Shown: in pieces, positions 38,393 to 50,438 of the stretch
Position numbering within the stretch: position 1 is the first letter of the stretch
How the letters are laid out: every line of letters starts with the position of its first letter
Source: Nitrospira sp. UBA2083
GTDB taxonomy: Bacteria; Nitrospirota; Nitrospiria; Nitrospirales; Nitrospiraceae
Reading direction: 5' to 3'
Length of the DNA stretch: 50,438 nucleotides
NCBI GenBank assembly: GCA_002331625.1
Contig: DCZN01000080.1
Coordinates: 293 to 50,730 of the forward strand
Translations under genes and position numbers: made by a program
The notes under the pieces: generated by a model
Told to the model about the DNA's origin: nothing
What the model saw: the letters and a program-made list of their open reading frames with translations, nothing else
Database searches by the model: none

Positions 38393-39772
38393 GTGTCTGA
38401 CCCAGAACGCTCGAACAAACCGGTGCCTCTCGATTCCATCATTACTGCGCGAATCGAAGCTATTAAACAGTTGGCACAGGGGCTGTCCGACCGTGTGGCG
38501 GTCATGGATCAGTCGTTCAATGTGGTCTACGCGAACGAAGCGGCGTGGTCGGTACAGGAGGGCACACACACTCGACGGCCTCACGCTAAGTGCTACGAAG
38601 CCTTTGCGCAGCGGACCGATCCTTGCGGGACCTGTCCAGCCATCAAGGTATTTGAAGCACCCGAAGTGCAGTGCGTGTCCTGTTCCGGTGGAGGCGACGG
38701 CACAGCCTGCGGAATGCAGCAAGCCTTTCCATTGACGGATGCCGATGGATCAGTTGCCTCCATGCTCGTGCTCTTCCAGCCGGCATCAAAGGCCGGTCTC
38801 TCTGTCACGGCTGAGGATGCCGGTACGACCCCCAGCGCTGATGGTCTCGGTGATTTGATCGGCCGGAGTCTCGTCATGCGGCAGCTCTTCGACATGACCC
38901 GCCTGGTCGCGGAGAGCTCGGCGACTGTCCTCATCCAAGGTGAGAGTGGAACGGGAAAGGAACTTCTGGCGAAAACGATTCACGCCTTCAGCAACCGCAG
39001 AGACCGACCATTCGTTGTGGTCGATTGTGGCTCACTGCCTGAGACGCTGCTCGAAAGCGAGCTGTTCGGGCATGTGAAGGGAGCCTTCACCGGAGCGGTG
39101 GCGAACAAGCGAGGCTTGTTCGACGAGGCCGACGGCGGCACGATTTTCTTGGATGAGATCGCCGACACGACTCCGACCTTTCAAGCCAAATTGCTTCGTG
39201 TCCTCCAAGAGGGAGAGATCAAGCCGGTGGGTGGAACGCGGACCATTAAAATCCATGCGCGTGTCATCTCAGCCTCGAACAAAGATCTGGCCGAACTGGT
39301 GAAGACCAAGACATTTCGACAGGACCTCTACTATCGCCTGGCTGTGTTGCCGCTCTATTTGCCGGCTCTCCGGGAGCGGCGGGAAGACATCCCGCTGCTC
39401 GTCCAACAGTTTGTCGCTGCGTCGTGCAGTCGGCATCATCAACCTGTGCGACAGGTATCAGAGCGGACGCTGCGGGCATTGCGCGACGCGCCATGGCCCG
39501 GCAACGTCCGTCAGTTGCAACACTACATCGAGCGGGCGGTCGTGACGACGGTCGGCCCTTCGCTCGAATGCCCGGATCTAATGAATATTGGCACCGAGAT
39601 CGAGGATGAGGGGTTACGCTCAGCGTCGCGCGAGGCTGTTGTTCAGACCGAGCGTATCAGGATCGTTGATGCTCTGAAAAAGACCGCAGGCAACCGATTG
39701 AAGGCAGCGAAGCTGCTCAGGATTAGCCGAGCGAGTCTCTATAACAAACTTCGAGCGTATAGCATCGAATAG
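38393..39772 (+). CDS. PAS-containing sigma-54-dependent transcriptional activator
   Basis: 459 residues, GTG start. The N-terminal PAS domain (about 20-140) contains a cysteine-rich insert ([17 protein letters not shown], then CVSCSGG and CGMQ) that may bind metal or respond to redox. The AAA+ domain has [14 protein letters not shown] (intact sigma-54 loop), [10 protein letters not shown] and [15 protein letters not shown] Fis-type helix-turn-helix closes it ([23 protein letters not shown]). There is no receiver domain, so it senses through PAS. A consensus sigma-54 promoter lies 386 bp beyond its stop. Confidence 0.93.
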
Positions 39773-39981
39773 AATCGGCCTTCCGCCCTCTCTTCCCATG
39801 ATTTATAGCTTTCTTTGTTAGAGCCGGGGACATGGCTGTGGTGTTGTGTCATCACGGCAGTCAGTTCACGTTCCATTTGCTGATCCTTCTCTCCTCCAAC
39901 TGTGGGTCCGAGCAAGTACAGAGCGCTTTATTCAAACGACCCCCGGTTGTCCCTTTTCGCCCCCTCATATCAGGAATGAGC

Positions 39982-40110
39982 GTCTATCGGTGTAGACAGC
40001 ATAAGTACATGATATTTGGACGGACGACTGAGGCGTTGTTTCCACTGTCTAAGTAAGTGGAGTTCGCTGAGCAGCAGCACCAGACGCTTGTTGTGCTGGA
40101 CGTCGTCCAT
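39982..40110. promoter_or_regulatory. Dyad cluster (candidate enhancer sites) upstream of a sigma-54 promoter
   Basis: Four inverted repeats: GTCTA-N6-TAGAC (39982-39997), TCCACT-N9-AGTGGA (40041-40061), CAGCAC-N12-GTGCTG (40075-40098) and TGGAC-GTC-GTCCA (40097-40109). They lie roughly -190, -130, -95 and -80 from the predicted start at about 40184, the range where bacterial enhancer-binding proteins bind. No protein-coding gene is seen between 39773 and 40157. Confidence 0.5.
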
Positions 40111-40157
40111 CTTCGCTTCTGTTGCACGAATGAGCCGTCGAGGGATTACGAAACGGA

Positions 40158-40173
40158 TGGCACGACCGTTGCT
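40158..40173 (+). promoter_or_regulatory. Consensus sigma-54 (-24/-12) promoter
   Basis: TGGCACGACCGTTGCT matches the TGGCACR-N4-TTGCW consensus at every fixed position, with GG and GC separated by 10 nt. It drives rightward, but the nearest plus-strand ORF with a start is 246 bp away and a terminator lies between. Confidence 0.8.
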
Positions 40174-40183
40174 GATGATATTG

Positions 40184-40331
40184 AACAACACAGAGAGAGT
40201 TGACTCTCTGGGTGATGGGTAGCGATTCGCCCTATCGTTATCCAACACAGTCCACCCAAATGTGAGCGGTTGTCCCGACCGCCACGTGTCAGCGATGAGG
40301 GGGCCACAGGTGAGAGTGGCCCCCTCATTTT
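40184..40331 (+). ncRNA. Candidate sigma-54-dependent small RNA (~148 nt)
   Basis: It spans from the predicted start of the -24/-12 promoter to the end of the terminator. Four hairpins: CAGAGAG/CTCTCTG (40191-40210); a 10-bp stem with two G-U pairs, 40217-40226 with 40234-40243; GCGGT/ACCGC (40266-40282); and a 13-bp terminator (40295-40328) with TTTT. Between stems 2 and 3 is an unpaired-looking segment (CAACACAGTCCACCCAAATG) that could pair with targets. No start codon with ribosome-binding site is present. It lies next to a sigma-54 activator gene, as Vibrio qrr1 does next to luxO. Function unknown. Confidence 0.6.
40295..40331 (+). terminator. Strong intrinsic terminator
   Basis: ATGAGGGGGCCAC / GTGGCCCCCTCAT, a perfect 13-bp GC-rich stem with an 8-nt loop, then TTTTCTATT on the plus strand. 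Confidence 0.85.
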
Positions 40332-40418
40332 CTATTCGGGCAGGGCTGGCGTCCGTGGCGATGATGATGTGGCTCACCGATCCGCTGTCATGCGGAGGAT
40401 ACGAAAGAGGCCAATGAA

Positions 40419-41267
40419 ATGAGAAGCCCGGTAGTCGATCTCGAAGAGGAGCTTGCAGAGACTGTCAAACGATCGGATCGACAGAACCTGCGGCGTACAT
40501 ATTGGAGCCAGAACGAGTTCATCCACCTTGAGCACTTTTTACCCTCGATGGTGTTCGAACCGTTGCTCGCCGAACTCGACCTGCTTCAGTCGGACATCCA
40601 TCGCAACTATGTTCCCGGTCACAAACAGGGAGGGAGCGTCAGCTACTACAGCATTCGAGAGAAGGCACCAGCGATGCTGGCTCTCTATCAGTCGCTGGCG
40701 CTTCGGACGTTCCTCGACCAACTTACCGACGCCGAGTTGAAGCGGTGTCCCGAAGACGACCCACATGCTTGTGCCCTGTACTACTACACAAAACCAGGGG
40801 ATCGCATCGGCTATCACTATGACACCTCCTACTACAAAGGCGCCCGTTACACAGTCCTCATCGGGCTCGTGGAGCATTCGGAGCGTTGCCGGTTGGTGGC
40901 ACGTGTGGGGACGGGTGAACCCGTCGAGAATCTCCCTGAAACCAGTTTTCGGATGGATGCGGGCACGATGGTGGTCTTCAACGGAGACAAGCTCTGGCAT
41001 GCCGTCACTCCTCTGGGGGAAGGTGAACGGCGAGTGATCCTGACTCTCCAATATGTCACCGATCAACAGATGGGACCGGTGAAGAAATTGTTCTCGAATA
41101 TGAAAGACGCATTCGCCTACTTCGGCCCTGCCGCCTTGATACGCACGCCGAAGGCGAAGCAGACGATCGATGCGAATGCCACCTCGTCGTCAGACGTGAT
41201 GACCGAGCATCCAACATTGTCATTCCTCGCAGGAGCCGGTGGTGCATCTCTCAATCGCAATTCCTGA
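40419..41267 (+). CDS. 2-oxoglutarate/Fe(II)-dependent oxygenase
   Basis: 282 residues. The jelly-roll facial triad is H133-x-D135 (GYHYDTSYY) and H194 (KLWHAVTP), with an Arg at 204/205 (GERRVIL) to bind 2-oxoglutarate. The C-terminal ~55 residues are variable. Close to prolyl-hydroxylase-like and other soluble 2OG oxygenases, but the substrate is unknown. Its 3' end overlaps the next gene by 29 bp, so they form an operon. Confidence 0.85.
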   Translation: MRSPVVDLEEELAETVKRSDRQNLRRTYWSQNEFIHLEHFLPSMVFEPLLAELDLLQSDIHRNYVPGHKQGGSVSYYSIREKAPAMLALYQSLALRTFLDQLTDAELKRCPEDDPHACALYYYTKPGDRIGYHYDTSYYKGARYTVLIGLVEHSERCRLVARVGTGEPVENLPETSFRMDAGTMVVFNGDKLWHAVTPLGEGERRVILTLQYVTDQQMGPVKKLFSNMKDAFAYFGPAALIRTPKAKQTIDANATSSSDVMTEHPTLSFLAGAGGASLNRNS

Positions 41268-43952: not shown

Positions 43953-44675
43953 ATGTCTACCTCAGACCAAGCCCCAACACTCCAGGCACTTCAGCGTCAA
44001 TATGTAAACTTCGTCTTCTATAAAGTCGATCCAGCCTGGCGGCGGTTGCCTGAAGATAGGCGCACCCAGGGCAAACAGGAGTTCCTCCGGGCCGTGGAGG
44101 GTTACAACGGGAAAGTTTTGGTGGTTCCTTATTCGACCATCGGCATTCGCGGCGACTGCGATATCATGCTCTGGCGGATCAGTTACGACTTGGACCTCGT
44201 CCAAGACATGAGCACCAAGATCCTTGCCTCCGGCTTAGGGCACTACCTCACGACTCCGTACTCCTATCTGGCGATGACCAAACGGTCGGTCTACGTGGAC
44301 CACCATACCCATGCCGGTCAGGAAGGAAAGCGACTGACGGTGGTGCCGGGAAAGAGTAAGTACATTTTCGTGTATCCGTTCCTGAAAACGCGCGGATGGT
44401 TCCTGCTCACGAAAGCGGCGCGCCAGGGCATGATGGATGAACACATCGAAGTCGGGCATCGCTTCCCCTCGGTGAAGCTCAATACGAGCTATTCATTCGG
44501 GTTGGATGATCAAGAATGGGTCGTGGCGTTTGAGAGCGATAAGCCAGAGGATTTTCTGGAGTTGGTGATGGCGCTACGGGAGACGGAAGGATCGCGATAT
44601 ACCTTGCGGGACACCCCCATCTTCACCTGCATTCGTCGAAGTCTCAAGGAAACGCTCGACACAATCGGCGGCTGA
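43953..44675 (+). CDS. Chlorite-dismutase-family heme protein lacking the distal arginine
   Basis: 240 residues. The family fold is shown by KSKYIFVYPFLKTRGWFLL, the proximal heme ligand H164 (MMDEHIEVGHRFP), YSFGLDDQEWVVAFESDKPEDFLELV and the ending DTPIFTC. In Nitrospira chlorite dismutase the distal Arg lies 13 residues after the proximal His. Here that region reads L176-N177, so no Arg is present. Chlorite dismutation is therefore unlikely, and a coproheme decarboxylase (HemQ)-like or other heme-linked role is more plausible. GGAG ribosome-binding site present; the Rieske gene follows by 14 bp. Confidence 0.85.
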   Translation: MSTSDQAPTLQALQRQYVNFVFYKVDPAWRRLPEDRRTQGKQEFLRAVEGYNGKVLVVPYSTIGIRGDCDIMLWRISYDLDLVQDMSTKILASGLGHYLTTPYSYLAMTKRSVYVDHHTHAGQEGKRLTVVPGKSKYIFVYPFLKTRGWFLLTKAARQGMMDEHIEVGHRFPSVKLNTSYSFGLDDQEWVVAFESDKPEDFLELVMALRETEGSRYTLRDTPIFTCIRRSLKETLDTIGG

Positions 44676-44689
44676 TGCCACAGAACTGA

Positions 44690-45730
44690 ATGCTCGAAGG
44701 TTTCTGGTACATTGCCGGGAAGAGTGCGGCGGTCAAAGCCGGTCGGCCGCTTGCGTCGGCACTCTGTAATCAGCCATTGGTGCTGTTTCGGGATGGCCGA
44801 GGTCGCATCCATGCGTTGGAGGATCGCTGTCCCCACAAAGGCGTTCCGCTCTCGTCCGCTCGGCAGGAAGGGGATTCCCTGCGGTGTCCGTTTCATGGAT
44901 GGCGTTTTATCTCCTCGGGTGAGTGCGTGGAGGTTCCGGCCATCGGCAACGTGGCACACCCATCATCGGCTTCGGCCTGCGTCAAGCGCTTTCCATCCGA
45001 GGAACAGGACGGATGGGTGTGGGTCTACATTGGCAACGACCAATGCCGGCAGCCTTCGTCTCCCCCACCGTCGTTGCCAGTGCCCGCTGATGGGAGTCCG
45101 ATGGTTTCCGTGTGCGAGTCTGCCGAAGCACAGGTCCGATGGGACTTCGCCGTGGACAGTCTCATGGATCCCGCTCATGTCCCGTTCGTGCACCACAATT
45201 ATTTCCGCCGACGGGAGGCGGCCCGCAGAAAAGAGAAAGTGTTCACACGATTGCCGCTGGGGTTTCGCACCGTATCGCAGAACGTGTTGCTGCCGGACAC
45301 CTTTATCTTTCGCGCCTTGTCTCCAAGGCTGGGGTCGGCAACGACCACGGTCGACTTCATCCTGCCCGGTATCCATCTGGAGCAATGGGAGATCGGCAAA
45401 CGGTTCGCGTCCGTCATGTTGGTTGCCACACCGCTCACCGATGAACGAAGCCGGTTCGACATCTGTGTCGGGTGGAACTTTTTGCACGGGTTCCCTGTTG
45501 GGTGGCCGATTCGCCGGACCTTGAGGACAATTCTGGGACAAGACCGGAAAGTGTTGGAATTGCAGGAACAGGGGTTCGGCCAGAAGGGAAGTATGCTATT
45601 GAACTTGGAATCGGATACACCAGCCGTGTGGTACCGACGGCTGAAGCGATATCGCCTTGATCAATTGGCTGGAGTGCCGAACCTCCAACATCCGGTTCCT
45701 GAGAAAGTCGCCCTCAGCTGGGTCACCTAA
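44690..45730 (+). CDS. Rieske-type oxygenase
   Basis: 346 residues. N-terminal Rieske 2Fe-2S site C47-x-H49-X16-C66-x2-H69 (CPHKG ... CPFHG), then the mononuclear iron region NXXDPAHVPFVHHN (LMDPAHVPFVHHNY) and a C-terminal catalytic domain. The length and arrangement match pheophorbide-oxygenase/vanillate-demethylase-like enzymes. Substrate unknown. Closely behind the chlorite-dismutase-family gene, with a heme-binding partner suggesting tetrapyrrole or aromatic substrates. Weak ribosome-binding site. Confidence 0.9.
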   Translation: MLEGFWYIAGKSAAVKAGRPLASALCNQPLVLFRDGRGRIHALEDRCPHKGVPLSSARQEGDSLRCPFHGWRFISSGECVEVPAIGNVAHPSSASACVKRFPSEEQDGWVWVYIGNDQCRQPSSPPPSLPVPADGSPMVSVCESAEAQVRWDFAVDSLMDPAHVPFVHHNYFRRREAARRKEKVFTRLPLGFRTVSQNVLLPDTFIFRALSPRLGSATTTVDFILPGIHLEQWEIGKRFASVMLVATPLTDERSRFDICVGWNFLHGFPVGWPIRRTLRTILGQDRKVLELQEQGFGQKGSMLLNLESDTPAVWYRRLKRYRLDQLAGVPNLQHPVPEKVALSWVT

Positions 45731-46456: not shown

Positions 46457-46630
46457 ACACTGTCCAGTTAGTTGGACATACGTAACTTCATGATTTTTCT
46501 AAACATGCAGTGATTGAGGTCAGCAACTGTCTCTTTCTGTAGAAGATCTCCCCAAAGTTTGCTGATCAGTGCTTCATGCTCATGTTCGTTCGAACACATT
46601 GTTTCTGTTGGACAATATCAGCTCATTGTC
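46457..46630. other. AT-richer intergenic stretch, no gene seen
   Basis: No coding region or RNA gene was identified. It precedes the structured leader of the multicopper oxidase gene and probably contains its promoter. Confidence 0.4.
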
Positions 46631-46797
46631 GCCTTTGTACAAAAAGGCACGGCGATTGCCCTACGAAAGAGGTGCTGGTGAGGGTCTGGGTGATTTTGGA
46701 CCGGCCTCCGAATGACCCATTCCTTCGCAAGAAGGAACCCTTCACCAGCTCTTAGCCCTCCTGAGATGCAAGGCCGGTGGGTAGTTCGGAGGCCGGT
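46631..46797 (+). promoter_or_regulatory. Structured 5' leader of the multicopper oxidase gene (possible riboregulator)
   Basis: Hairpin GCCTTT/AAAGGC (46631-46648). GCTGGTGAGGG (46674-46684) pairs with CCCTTCACCAGC (46738-46749) and encloses TTCCTTC-GCAA-GAAGGAA (46720-46737), a 7-bp stem with a GNRA tetraloop. A 13-bp helix ACCGGCCTCCGAA (46700-46712) / TTCGGAGGCCGGT (46785-46797) crosses the previous one, so the leader forms either a pseudoknot or two exclusive folds. The start codon follows ~100 nt later. Confidence 0.5.
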
Positions 46798-46899
46798 TCT
46801 CATTCCTATAGTTCGGTATGGGCGATCGGAGGCAGGTCTACTAGCAGATTCCAACTGTTTCTTAGGCGGTCACATATCTAGAGAAGGGGAGGCCGAGTT

Positions 46900-49800
46900 A
46901 TGAGGTCTAGTCATTTTCAACAGAGTAGGAGGCTGAGGAGGGCTGGCGCGATGCGGCAACTCTTCAGCTTGGTATTGATGGGCGGTCTCGCCATCACACC
47001 GATGGCGTGGGCTGCCGAGCAGCACGGTCACCAGGGCAGCGCCGAACAGGCGTCTGCGAAAAAGGTGATCTATCGTGAAGGCGGGTCAGTCCTTCACGAC
47101 CGCATGATGGACGAAATCAAGCGGCAGCAGGAATTCATCGGAAAGAAAGGGGGGTACGGCACAGGCGCCAACAGCCACATGATGCAACAGGGCGTGTTGC
47201 TGGTGGCGGATGACCCGGACAAAGTCTCGGTTACCAACGGGCAGCGATGCCCGGCAAACGCGCCAGTCAAGGAATACCACGTCTCAGCGATCAACATGGA
47301 AATCACGTTGAGCCGGTTTCTCGATTACTTCCCTGGGTACATGTACGTCCTGAACGAAAATCTGGATAAAGCACGAGCCGAGGAAACGGCGAACAAGGAA
47401 GCACGGGAAAAAGAAAACGATCCGGGCGCCGTGTCGAACGGTCTACAGGGTGATGTGATCCAACCGCTCGTCATTCGGGCGAATCAGGGTGATTGCCTCA
47501 AGATGACGCTCCACAACCGGATCGCTGATGAGCCGACGAACCTTGTCATCAACGGTTCGTCGATGGTGGTCTCTTCGACCGGCAAGCCGGCGACTCCGTC
47601 GAATCCGGATACGACCGTGGCGGCGGGGAAAGAGCAGAGTTTTGAATGGTACATCAAGCCGGACACACAAGAGGGCGCGCGGTTTCTTCGATCGCATGCC
47701 TCACGTGAACAGTTTAATCTCGGATTGATCGGCATGCTGGTGGTCGAGCCACGCGGCTCACGCTATCTGAGTCCGTTCGATGGAAAGCCGATGACCAGCG
47801 GCTGGGAAGCCATGATTGAAGATCCGAATGGAGCGGACTTCCGCGAGTTTGCGATCTTCTATCATGAGGCAGGAGACGAGGCGTTCCGGATTTTGAACAA
47901 GAAGGGTGAGATGTTACCGCAGCGCGATCCTCACACCGACTCGTATCGGCCGGGAGCGCGTTTGTTGAACTATCGCAGCGAGCCACACGGCACACGCATC
48001 GAACTCCAAGCGCACATGGGATTCTATGGTGATGAGTCCATGGCGTACGGGTCCTATACATTCGGCGACCCGGCCACAACTATCCCCCGCTCCTACATGG
48101 GTGATCCGGCCAAGTTCCGGATGGCGGGTGGGTCGGAAATCGTGCACTCACACCACCTCCATGGTGGGTCTATCCGCTGGGCACGCCAGCCGGGGAACAG
48201 CAACCTGGACTTTGCCGCTTCGAGCAATGGGCCGGTGAAGTTCCCGCTCATCAGCGATACGTCTGACCGCCTCGACGTCCAATCCATTGGGCCGACGGAG
48301 ATCTACGATCAAGTCATCGAGGGTGGTTCAGGAGGGCTGCAGGCATTGGCCGGAGAATTCGTGTTCCACTGCCACATCCCGCAGCACTATGTCACGGGCA
48401 TGTGGGGATTCTGGCGTGTGTACAACACGCTGCAGGCGCCAGGTTCTCAGACCGACGTGATGAAACCGTTGGTTGAATTGCCGGACCGTGTCGGCCGAAT
48501 GAAGACCGGTGTCGCGAGCGATAAGCTCGTGGGTACGATGGTCGATTGGTACGGAGGCAAGAAATTCGAGATCACCAAGGACAAGTCCGATTGGAAAGCC
48601 AATCCGGCCAAGGTCTCCATCAAGGATTGGGTTGAAATGCAGGTGCCGCCGCAGGGCAAGCCAGGGCACAAGAATACAGAGAAGGAGCAGACCCTGGCCT
48701 ATGACTCGACGGTCAATGATTGGGCCTGGGATGGTATGAAGGCTCTGTCCGAACCTGAAACGACGTACGAATGGGTGAACTACAAGTCGTCGACCCCTGG
48801 CAAGCGGCAGGAGATTCTCTTTGACCCGCGGACCGGAAAACTGTCGTGGCCGTGGCTGCGGCCGCATCTCGGTAGGCGAGTGCCGTTCTCGCCGAGCCAC
48901 AGCGGTGCGCCTTGGTTGGAGCCGATTCATCGGCGGGATGACGGCAGCAACTCGACCGAGCCGCCGAGACCGGGAGAGCAGGGACCATGGAGTCTTTGTC
49001 CGGAAGGAGCGCCGGTCAAGAAATTCAATATCCATGCGATCACCTTGCCGATTACCTTGAAGGCGGCGACGGCCAAGACGCCGGCGATCGTCGATCCGGG
49101 CGGCTTACTCTATGTCTTGCACGAAGAGGAAGCTGAGGTCCGAAAGAATAGAGCGAAGCAGTTTCCGCTGGTCATTCGTGGAAACGTGCAGGACTGCATT
49201 GACGTGGTCTATAAGAGCGAGCTGAAAGATGATACGCGGCAAGGGTTCTCCAGCAAGACGAACCTGCATCCGCACATGTTCCAGTTCGATACTCAGGCGT
49301 CCGATGGACCCATCATCGGTTTCTCCTATGAGATGTCACTCCGTCCGTTCACGATCTTGAAGGACGAGCACCCGGGCAAAGGCATGCCGGTCCCGATGAA
49401 CACCACGATCGAGGCCGATGCCGCCAAGGGGGCGACCAGCATCAAGGTCAAGGATGCGTCAAAGTTCCACGTCAAGACGGAGCTGGGCGTGGGGATGGAT
49501 GAAGTGAATGGATTCGAGTCAGCCCGTATCAGCAAGATCGACGGCAATACAATCACCTTCGAGCGGCCGTTGCTCCATGCTCATAAGAAGGGTGAGATTG
49601 CCTCGGTCGAGTGGATCCGCGAGCGCTGGTATGTGGACGCCGACTTCGGCACCACGTTCTGGCATGACCATGTGTATGGACTCGACTCGTGGGGGCACGG
49701 GCAGTATGCCTCATTCATCACGGAGCCGCCGCGATCGACCTATCACGATCCAGTGACGGGGAAGGAAATCAGGAGCGGCCCTGTCGCGGACATTCACACG

Positions 49801-50438
49801 ACCGAACCGGTGTCCGCCCATATCAAGGGGTCGTTCCGTGAGATCGTGACCCATGTCATGGATTCCAACCCTCGGGCGGCGGAATTGATTACGGCCGACA
49901 ATCCACAGGCGAGGGTCAACGCCATTTCTGTCGATGGGACACCGTCGGCGGTTTATCCGGCGAAATTGAACCTCTCGCCGATGAAGTTCCTGAACGGCGG
50001 CGAAGCCACGACCGGTGGCGGGTACAACATGCGGATAGAGCCCTTGTCTGTCCGCTTGGCAAACAACCCGGATCCTTCGAAGTTGTTCAGCAGTGTGATC
50101 CACGGAGATCCGGATACGCTGATGTTGCGGGCCTATCTGGGTGATCCAGTGGTGGTCAGACTGCTAGAAACGTCAGCCAACGAAGTGCATTCCTGGCACA
50201 TCAGCGGTCACTGGTTCCCGATGGAGCGGTATAGCAAGAACTCCATCCCGCGCAGCTCGCTGCATGTGGTGATCGGGGAACGGTACGATGCGGCCATTCC
50301 GGCCGCCGGCGGACCGCAACAGATGGCGGGCGACTACCTGTACTATAGTGGTCGTGCGTCGCACTTCGTCGAAGGCAGCTGGGGAATTGTCCGAGTTCTG
50401 GACAAGGCGGATGCGACACTCAAACCGCTTCCAGGGCG
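46900..50438 (+). CDS. Very large multicopper oxidase (3' truncated by window)
   Basis: At least 1,179 residues and still open at the window end. ATG 46900 follows GGGGAGG; ATG 46951 (GAGGAGG further back) would start directly at the signal peptide (LFSLVLMGGLAITPMAWAA). Numbering from 46951, copper motifs are HSHHLHGG near 397, HCHIPQHYVTGM near 472 (type 1/3 site with Met), LHPHMF near 771, WHDHVYG near 903 and HSWHISGHWF near 1079. The HCH motif comes before the HPH and HDH motifs, the reverse of a laccase order. Multidomain, exported. The substrate could be Mn(II), Cu(I) or organic; unproven. Confidence 0.9.
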   Translation, partial: MRSSHFQQSRRLRRAGAMRQLFSLVLMGGLAITPMAWAAEQHGHQGSAEQASAKKVIYREGGSVLHDRMMDEIKRQQEFIGKKGGYGTGANSHMMQQGVLLVADDPDKVSVTNGQRCPANAPVKEYHVSAINMEITLSRFLDYFPGYMYVLNENLDKARAEETANKEAREKENDPGAVSNGLQGDVIQPLVIRANQGDCLKMTLHNRIADEPTNLVINGSSMVVSSTGKPATPSNPDTTVAAGKEQSFEWYIKPDTQEGARFLRSHASREQFNLGLIGMLVVEPRGSRYLSPFDGKPMTSGWEAMIEDPNGADFREFAIFYHEAGDEAFRILNKKGEMLPQRDPHTDSYRPGARLLNYRSEPHGTRIELQAHMGFYGDESMAYGSYTFGDPATTIPRSYMGDPAKFRMAGGSEIVHSHHLHGGSIRWARQPGNSNLDFAASSNGPVKFPLISDTSDRLDVQSIGPTEIYDQVIEGGSGGLQALAGEFVFHCHIPQHYVTGMWGFWRVYNTLQAPGSQTDVMKPLVELPDRVGRMKTGVASDKLVGTMVDWYGGKKFEITKDKSDWKANPAKVSIKDWVEMQVPPQGKPGHKNTEKEQTLAYDSTVNDWAWDGMKALSEPETTYEWVNYKSSTPGKRQEILFDPRTGKLSWPWLRPHLGRRVPFSPSHSGAPWLEPIHRRDDGSNSTEPPRPGEQGPWSLCPEGAPVKKFNIHAITLPITLKAATAKTPAIVDPGGLLYVLHEEEAEVRKNRAKQFPLVIRGNVQDCIDVVYKSELKDDTRQGFSSKTNLHPHMFQFDTQASDGPIIGFSYEMSLRPFTILKDEHPGKGMPVPMNTTIEADAAKGATSIKVKDASKFHVKTELGVGMDEVNGFESARISKIDGNTITFERPLLHAHKKGEIASVEWIRERWYVDADFGTTFWHDHVYGLDSWGHGQYASFITEPPRSTYHDPVTGKEIRSGPVADIHTTEPVSAHIKGSFREIVTHVMDSNPRAAELITADNPQARVNAISVDGTPSAVYPAKLNLSPMKFLNGGEATTGGGYNMRIEPLSVRLANNPDPSKLFSSVIHGDPDTLMLRAYLGDPVVVRLLETSANEVHSWHISGHWFPMERYSKNSIPRSSLHVVIGERYDAAIPAAGGPQQMAGDYLYYSGRASHFVEGSWGIVRVLDKADATLKPLPG

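Follow-up and report, generated by a model that had tools for sequence, protein, structure and literature searches.

At positions 40184-40331 of the window, a 50,438-nt stretch of DNA from Nitrospira sp. UBA2083, lies a conserved RNA gene that is apparently non-coding, has a sigma-54 promoter to itself and recurs in many Nitrospira genomes. The window spans positions 293-50,730 on the forward strand of contig DCZN01000080.1 (assembly GCA_002331625.1); its own genome, of 4.44 Mb and 89.5% complete, has an rpoN gene. At the level of comparative sequence analysis the RNA, here called RNA-1, is real: it founds a new family of RNAs, of a functional kind that is already known, and its apparent regulon is small and unusual. 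It is probably regulatory, and probably switched on by the sigma-54 activator encoded beside it. The original observation, a first-pass annotation made from the sequence of the window, comes out of the comparison stronger. Comparison of relatives shows conservation of the promoter, two upstream dyads, the RNA structure, the terminator, the lack of a common reading frame, the synteny and a control element shared with a second RNA, RNA-2 (Table 1).

A structured RNA behind a sigma-54 promoter

Table 1 Features of the window around RNA-1 and RNA-2.
Feature	Position	Strand	Basis
Sigma-54 activator gene: AAA domain, Fis-type HTH, Cys-rich N-terminal domain	38393-39772	+	PF00158, E 1.3e-67; HTH_8, E 7.5e-11
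Dyad 1, GTCTA-N6-TAGAC, candidate activator site	39982-39997		33/36 copies; paired TCTA/TAGA to TCCA/TGGA changes
Dyad 2 (imperfect), TGTCTA-N6-TGGA, possible binding site of the activator	40046-40061		33/36 copies
Sigma-54 promoter of RNA-1, TGGCACG-ACCG-TTGCT, TGGCACGACCGTTGCT	40158-40173	+	GG and GC in 36/36 aligned copies
RNA-1, apparently non-coding RNA, ~150 nt (148)	40184-40331	+	Fold z, covariance model, covariation; start inferred from promoter
Hairpin 1	40191-40210	+	Fold; pairs kept in 91.2% of cells
Hairpin 2, C-rich loop	40212-40248	+	Fold; both-side changes in 8/12 pairs
Hairpin 3, loop GUCCC	40260-40287	+	Fold; 96.5% of cells paired
Terminator hairpin, conserved loop	40294-40329	+	98.9% of cells paired; followed by TTCTATTCGG
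Dyad 1 of the RNA-2 element	46461-46478		Repeat of dyad 1; composite match
Imperfect dyad 2 of the RNA-2 element	~46528-46543		Sequence reading; composite match
Sigma-54 promoter of RNA-2, AGGCACGGCGATTGCC	46645-46660	+	2 mismatches to TGGCACG-N4-TTGCW; composite match
RNA-2, conserved structured leader	46672-46800	+	Near-invariant alignment; fold z -3.15
Multicopper-oxidase gene behind RNA-2	46900-50436	+	Runs off window

The perfect -24/-12 promoter claimed at the outset is present, and is the sole match without mismatch to TGGCACG-N4-TTGCW within the window. The motif alone is not decisive, because the whole genome holds two such matches and its reversed control one; with up to two mismatches, the window has 6 matches against 7.7 expected. 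Among relatives, the promoter stands directly before the non-coding RNA in all 36 aligned copies, with its -24 GG and -12 GC kept in every one.

With a predicted free energy of -73.6 kcal/mol, RNA-1 folds far more stably than 200 shuffled sequences (-45.1 +/- 3.7 kcal/mol; z -7.6). The four hairpins first described are all there; the central segment, described as unpaired, holds a small predicted CAC-N6-GTG hairpin that covaries (columns 75-77 with 84-86 of a MAFFT alignment). In the structure drawn from that alignment, the lower pairs of hairpin 3 compete with a small hairpin upstream. The GC-rich terminator with its T tail also stands, with 14 pairs, nine of them G-C, rather than the 13 originally counted.

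In a model-fitted alignment of the 36 copies, 95.4% of cells pair and 16 of 39 base pairs have changed on both sides. None of 500 shuffles reached the covariation score, a control that overstates significance because the sequences are related. The MAFFT alignment, independent of the model, returns the same main helices, with 15 of 36 pairs double-changed. The stems, like the promoter, are kept among relatives, and with compensatory changes.

No Rfam 15 family matches RNA-1 at its gathering score, and none credibly at E<=5. RNAs that sequester CsrA/RsmA carry repeated GGA in their loops; GGA is absent from 40184-40331 in the window sequence. We also considered, and rejected, the terminator hairpin as a repeated element. 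Five matches of the covariance model are confined to positions 110-146 (G009, G059, G075, G081, G083): three of them sit just 3' of the activator gene, the G075 match and the activator gene lie on different contigs, and in G059 a long distance separates the two.

At the DNA level, the query 39970-40420 matched 16 of 59 genomes, own genome included. Of the loci found, L018 (G053) was excluded as too weak, L019 was a second piece of G034 and L017 (G012) was mostly terminator. The window was aligned with 14 loci, and 13 of these plus the window made up the covariance-model alignment. The loci resemble one another over the upstream dyad, the promoter and the RNA. The model, R1, matched 44 of 79 Nitrospira genomes at E<=0.01. 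Strong copies (at least 59 bits) number 39, in 37 of the 79 genomes; the other seven matching genomes have weak or terminator-only matches. The 36-copy alignment was built from the strong copies after excluding those of G027 (truncated), G101 and G028 (both degraded). A single strong copy is the rule (35 of 37 genomes). The exceptions, G074 and G100, have two each (L050, L085; L064, L084), activator and RNA-1 being doubled together, by duplication or in a mixed assembly.

Outside this set, 295 genomes of the phylum were sampled and 23 carry RNA-1; every one of the 23 belongs to the 40 Nitrospira genomes in the sample. None was found in the 255 sampled genomes of other Nitrospirota genera under strict filters with ten scored candidates per genome, settings that might have let weak relatives slip by. 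A degenerate word pattern run against 84,980 species genomes returned 21 stretches: 18 are labelled Nitrospira (two representing one isolate), and one each Nitrospirae bacterium, Nitrospiraceae bacterium and 'uncultured Nitrosospira isolate CMX', the last perhaps a mislabelled comammox organism.

A control element shared with a second RNA

Four dyads had been proposed upstream of the promoter. A repeat search does give four short inverted repeats, at 40041-40109, but only two dyads, those of Table 1, are conserved. Both occur in 31 of the 36 copies, spaced 65-67 bp apart in 30 of these 31, or about six helical turns, and dyad 2 sits 113-117 bp ahead of the -24 GG. In the other five copies one or both are missing by pattern: L073 lies at a contig end, L053 and L076 are without dyad 1, and L062 and L068 have TAGA instead of TGGA in dyad 2.

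Searched singly, the dyad is no commoner in the window's own genome than its control (30 matches against 32). Both dyads plus the promoter, searched as one composite pattern, match in 64 of the 79 genus genomes and nowhere in the reversed control. The window's own genome has two matches, both inside the window: one before RNA-1, the other before RNA-2. The pattern was written from sites already seen, and its weight therefore rests on the reversed control and on the own-genome result. Of the 66 pattern rows followed (some sites appear twice; L080, which stops where its locus ends, and L173 represent one site), all but one lead into RNA-1, an RNA-1 variant or RNA-2. By the word test, the one left over, L171 (1501-1698), is followed by neither of the two RNAs; it marks a possible third regulon member. 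Separately, five loci (L082, L083, L106, L107, L112) show a diverged third RNA type, in which the composite element is followed by a terminator whose loop resembles that of RNA-1 (CACAGGTGAGAGTG or close), while the rest of the sequence differs. Two own-genome sites with a dyad and a promoter-like sequence (L134, L144) may be due to chance and were set aside.

In several genomes, the sigma-54 promoter right after the activator leads into RNA-2 instead. The core word of RNA-2 was looked for in 32 loci, of which L102 and L154 had no exact match and L163, which shares its genome with L099, was left out; about 79 nt are near-invariant across the 29 aligned sequences. A 31-nt core with at most two mismatches occurs in 44 of the 295 phylum genomes and never in the control: in 39 of the 40 genus genomes, and in five genomes from three other genera of the family. 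As with RNA-1, Rfam gave no credible match, at gathering or lenient thresholds.

One loop of RNA-2, CCGGCCUCC, is complementary to GGAGGCC, which occurs in two copies. The first lies 83-93 nt downstream of the loop in 26 of the 29 sequences. The other stands directly before an ATG, also in 26 of 29, the window included (L099 is without it; L101 and L166 fall outside the count). In the window this ATG belongs to the multicopper-oxidase gene, whose Shine-Dalgarno site the loop complements. The single-sequence fold favours the loop paired with the downstream copy (z -3.15). We read RNA-2 as a leader that would control translation of this gene, and the activator encoded at 38393-39772 probably controls it as well. 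The oxidase itself resembles MnxG far below the NCBIfam cut-off.

The activator and the genes around RNA-1

The neighbouring gene had been annotated as a PAS-sigma-54 activator. Its PF00158 and HTH_8 domains bear out a sigma-54 activator; the PAS domain is unconfirmed, the one PAS_4 match being sub-threshold and 23 residues long (E 0.11). Pfam finds no receiver domain in the protein, and a kinase and a lone receiver are encoded by separate genes upstream. Redox or metal sensing by the Cys-rich N-terminal domain is speculation, since that domain reaches no Pfam threshold.

An orthologue of the activator is found at E<=1e-150 in 68 of the 79 genus genomes. In 37 of the 39 strong copies it lies upstream of RNA-1 and is read in the same direction (a contig break cuts the gene in two in G102); the remaining two copies lie at contig ends, with 420 and 66 bp of contig upstream. 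This conserved adjacency ties the activator to RNA-1, and the dyads are its presumed binding sites.

On the other side of RNA-1, a 2OG-Fe(II) oxygenase-like gene (40419-41267; Halogenase D at 45.6 bits against a Pfam cut-off of 26) is the nearest tested gene in 20 of the 36 copies. Between RNA-1 and RNA-2, the window also encodes a chlorite dismutase and, after it, a Rieske oxygenase-like protein (43953-45730).

In some genomes an orphan amoC separates the activator gene from RNA-1, or from a remnant of RNA-1 (L076, L079, L080, L081, L086, L087, L089, L090, L113, L114); it is frame-broken in L087 and reduced to a remnant in L078. No strong sigma-54 promoter before orphan amoC passed our scan, which applied weights of our own to the sigma-54 consensus. 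The window's own genome has amoA and one partial amoC match, and is therefore probably that of a comammox organism. All comammox genomes hold a non-operonal amoC, a gene linked to stress in ammonia-oxidising bacteria, according to an excerpt of PMC6311188. A tie of RNA-1 itself to ammonia oxidation was tested and rejected: besides genomes with an AMO match, five that have none carry RNA-1 (G001, G003, G006, G010, G011), and one of the five is 99% complete.

Parallels, alternatives and a proposed circuit

The arrangement had been likened to luxO-qrr of vibrios, and a sigma-54 sRNA beside or under its activator gene is indeed common to both. LuxO, a response regulator, carries a receiver domain, and the Qrr RNAs act with Hfq from several copies per genome. 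RNA-1 differs on each count: one strong copy in 35 of 37 genomes, an activator without a receiver domain in Pfam, no match to an Rfam family, and no Hfq (PF17209) in 20 genomes, 12 of the same genus and 8 of the same order, when 5 of 14 control genomes were positive. The luxO-qrr system is not the closest parallel, because the receiver domain and Hfq were not found, and the Hfq result makes the usual chaperone route unlikely.

On our best reading the layout is closer to cbrB-crcZ and ntrC-nrsZ. In Pseudomonadaceae, as described in excerpts of PMC8871633 and PMC8395346, two-component genes including a sigma-54 activator (cbrA-cbrB) are followed by a sigma-54-dependent sRNA (crcZ) as a unit of its own, with synteny kept across the group. 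RNA-1 shares with CrcZ the place directly 3' of a sigma-54 activator, the apparently independent unit and the conserved synteny; in contrast to the Nitrospira activator, CbrB has a receiver domain, and CrcZ is a 407-nt Hfq/Crc decoy (same excerpts) whereas RNA-1 is of ~150 nt and highly structured. A decoy of this type sits poorly with the lack of Hfq in the 20 genomes, and the Rfam search gave no sequence relation between RNA-1 and CrcZ. The Pseudomonas sRNA NrsZ likewise lies in the intergenic region after its activator gene and is driven by NtrB/C and RpoN; at ~226 nt and processed, under NtrC, it differs from RNA-1 in structure, activator and lineage (excerpt of PMC8395346).

We propose, with good though not full confidence, that RNA-1 is a free-standing RNA gene, driven by the adjacent activator and sigma-54, which acts in trans without Hfq, and that the activator also drives the RNA-2 leader. 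The kinase and receiver, the Cys-rich domain, or both would pass a signal to the activator, which would bind the two dyads, whose starts precede the promoter by ~176 and ~112 bp. Sigma-54 polymerase would then start RNA-1 at ~40184 and stop at the hairpin ending at 40329. We infer both this transcription and an action in trans, on other mRNAs, with pairing through the C-rich hairpin loops or the linkers; the loops GCCCU and GUCCC are suggestions only as target-pairing candidates. With the same activator driving the RNA-2 leader of the multicopper-oxidase gene, one signal would yield two structured RNAs. Against this explanation counts that 42 of the 79 genus genomes are without a strong RNA-1 copy, most of them with the activator.

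RNA-1 could instead act in cis, as an attenuator- or riboswitch-like leader for the oxygenase gene that comes next or for the genes beyond, its last hairpin serving as a conditional terminator. Such a role would suit the same-strand gene of the tested set found ~16-370 nt after RNA-1 in all 36 copies, as well as RNA-2, which reads as a leader under the same control element. Yet the kind of gene downstream is not constant, four different ones of the tested set being nearest in 20, 10, 4 and 2 copies, and the terminator hairpin is almost invariably paired, with no competing antiterminator seen in the predicted structures; we judge a cis-acting leader unlikely. That RNA-1 derives from the orphan amoC, as a relic of that gene or its 3' UTR, seems very improbable. 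The activator itself is the nearest upstream tested gene in 26 of the 36 copies, against 8 for amoC or its remnant, and where amoC is present the 447-563 nt from the amoC match to RNA-1 contain a sigma-54 promoter, even if weak model matches follow amoC in G012, G028 and G101 with no promoter passing the scan.

The same stretch might also be a short protein gene, the least credible of these alternatives. Open reading frames of at least 25 codons overlap RNA-1 in most copies and some are common to close relatives, but no frame is common to all 36 aligned copies, three copies (L060, L063, L065) are without any frame of that length, and base pairs rather than codons are conserved. No conserved frame covers the interval across the alignment, as the initial claim of a non-coding product would have it, and we read RNA-1 as an RNA gene.

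No title among the open-access PMC matches listed concerns an sRNA or a sigma-54-dependent RNA in Nitrospira. One Nitrospira transcriptome study removed small RNAs (PMC6606698); the Nitrospira literature covered also includes PMC13374858. The free-standing RNA gene we favour matters in a lineage where Hfq was found in none of 20 genomes and where the open-access PMC matches listed hold little on gene regulation. An RNA outside Rfam 15 comes here with its promoter, candidate binding sites, a candidate activator and a second, putatively co-regulated RNA, all of them directly testable. Nitrospira carry out nitrite oxidation and, as comammox organisms, complete nitrification. Tentatively, at somewhat short of even odds, we suggest that a single activator may govern a very small regulon, composed of RNA-1, as an sRNA that acts in trans without Hfq, and RNA-2, as a leader that hardly varies, with amoC part of the activator-RNA-1 unit in several genomes: a signal-driven RNA circuit that would be linked with copper enzymes and perhaps with nitrification.
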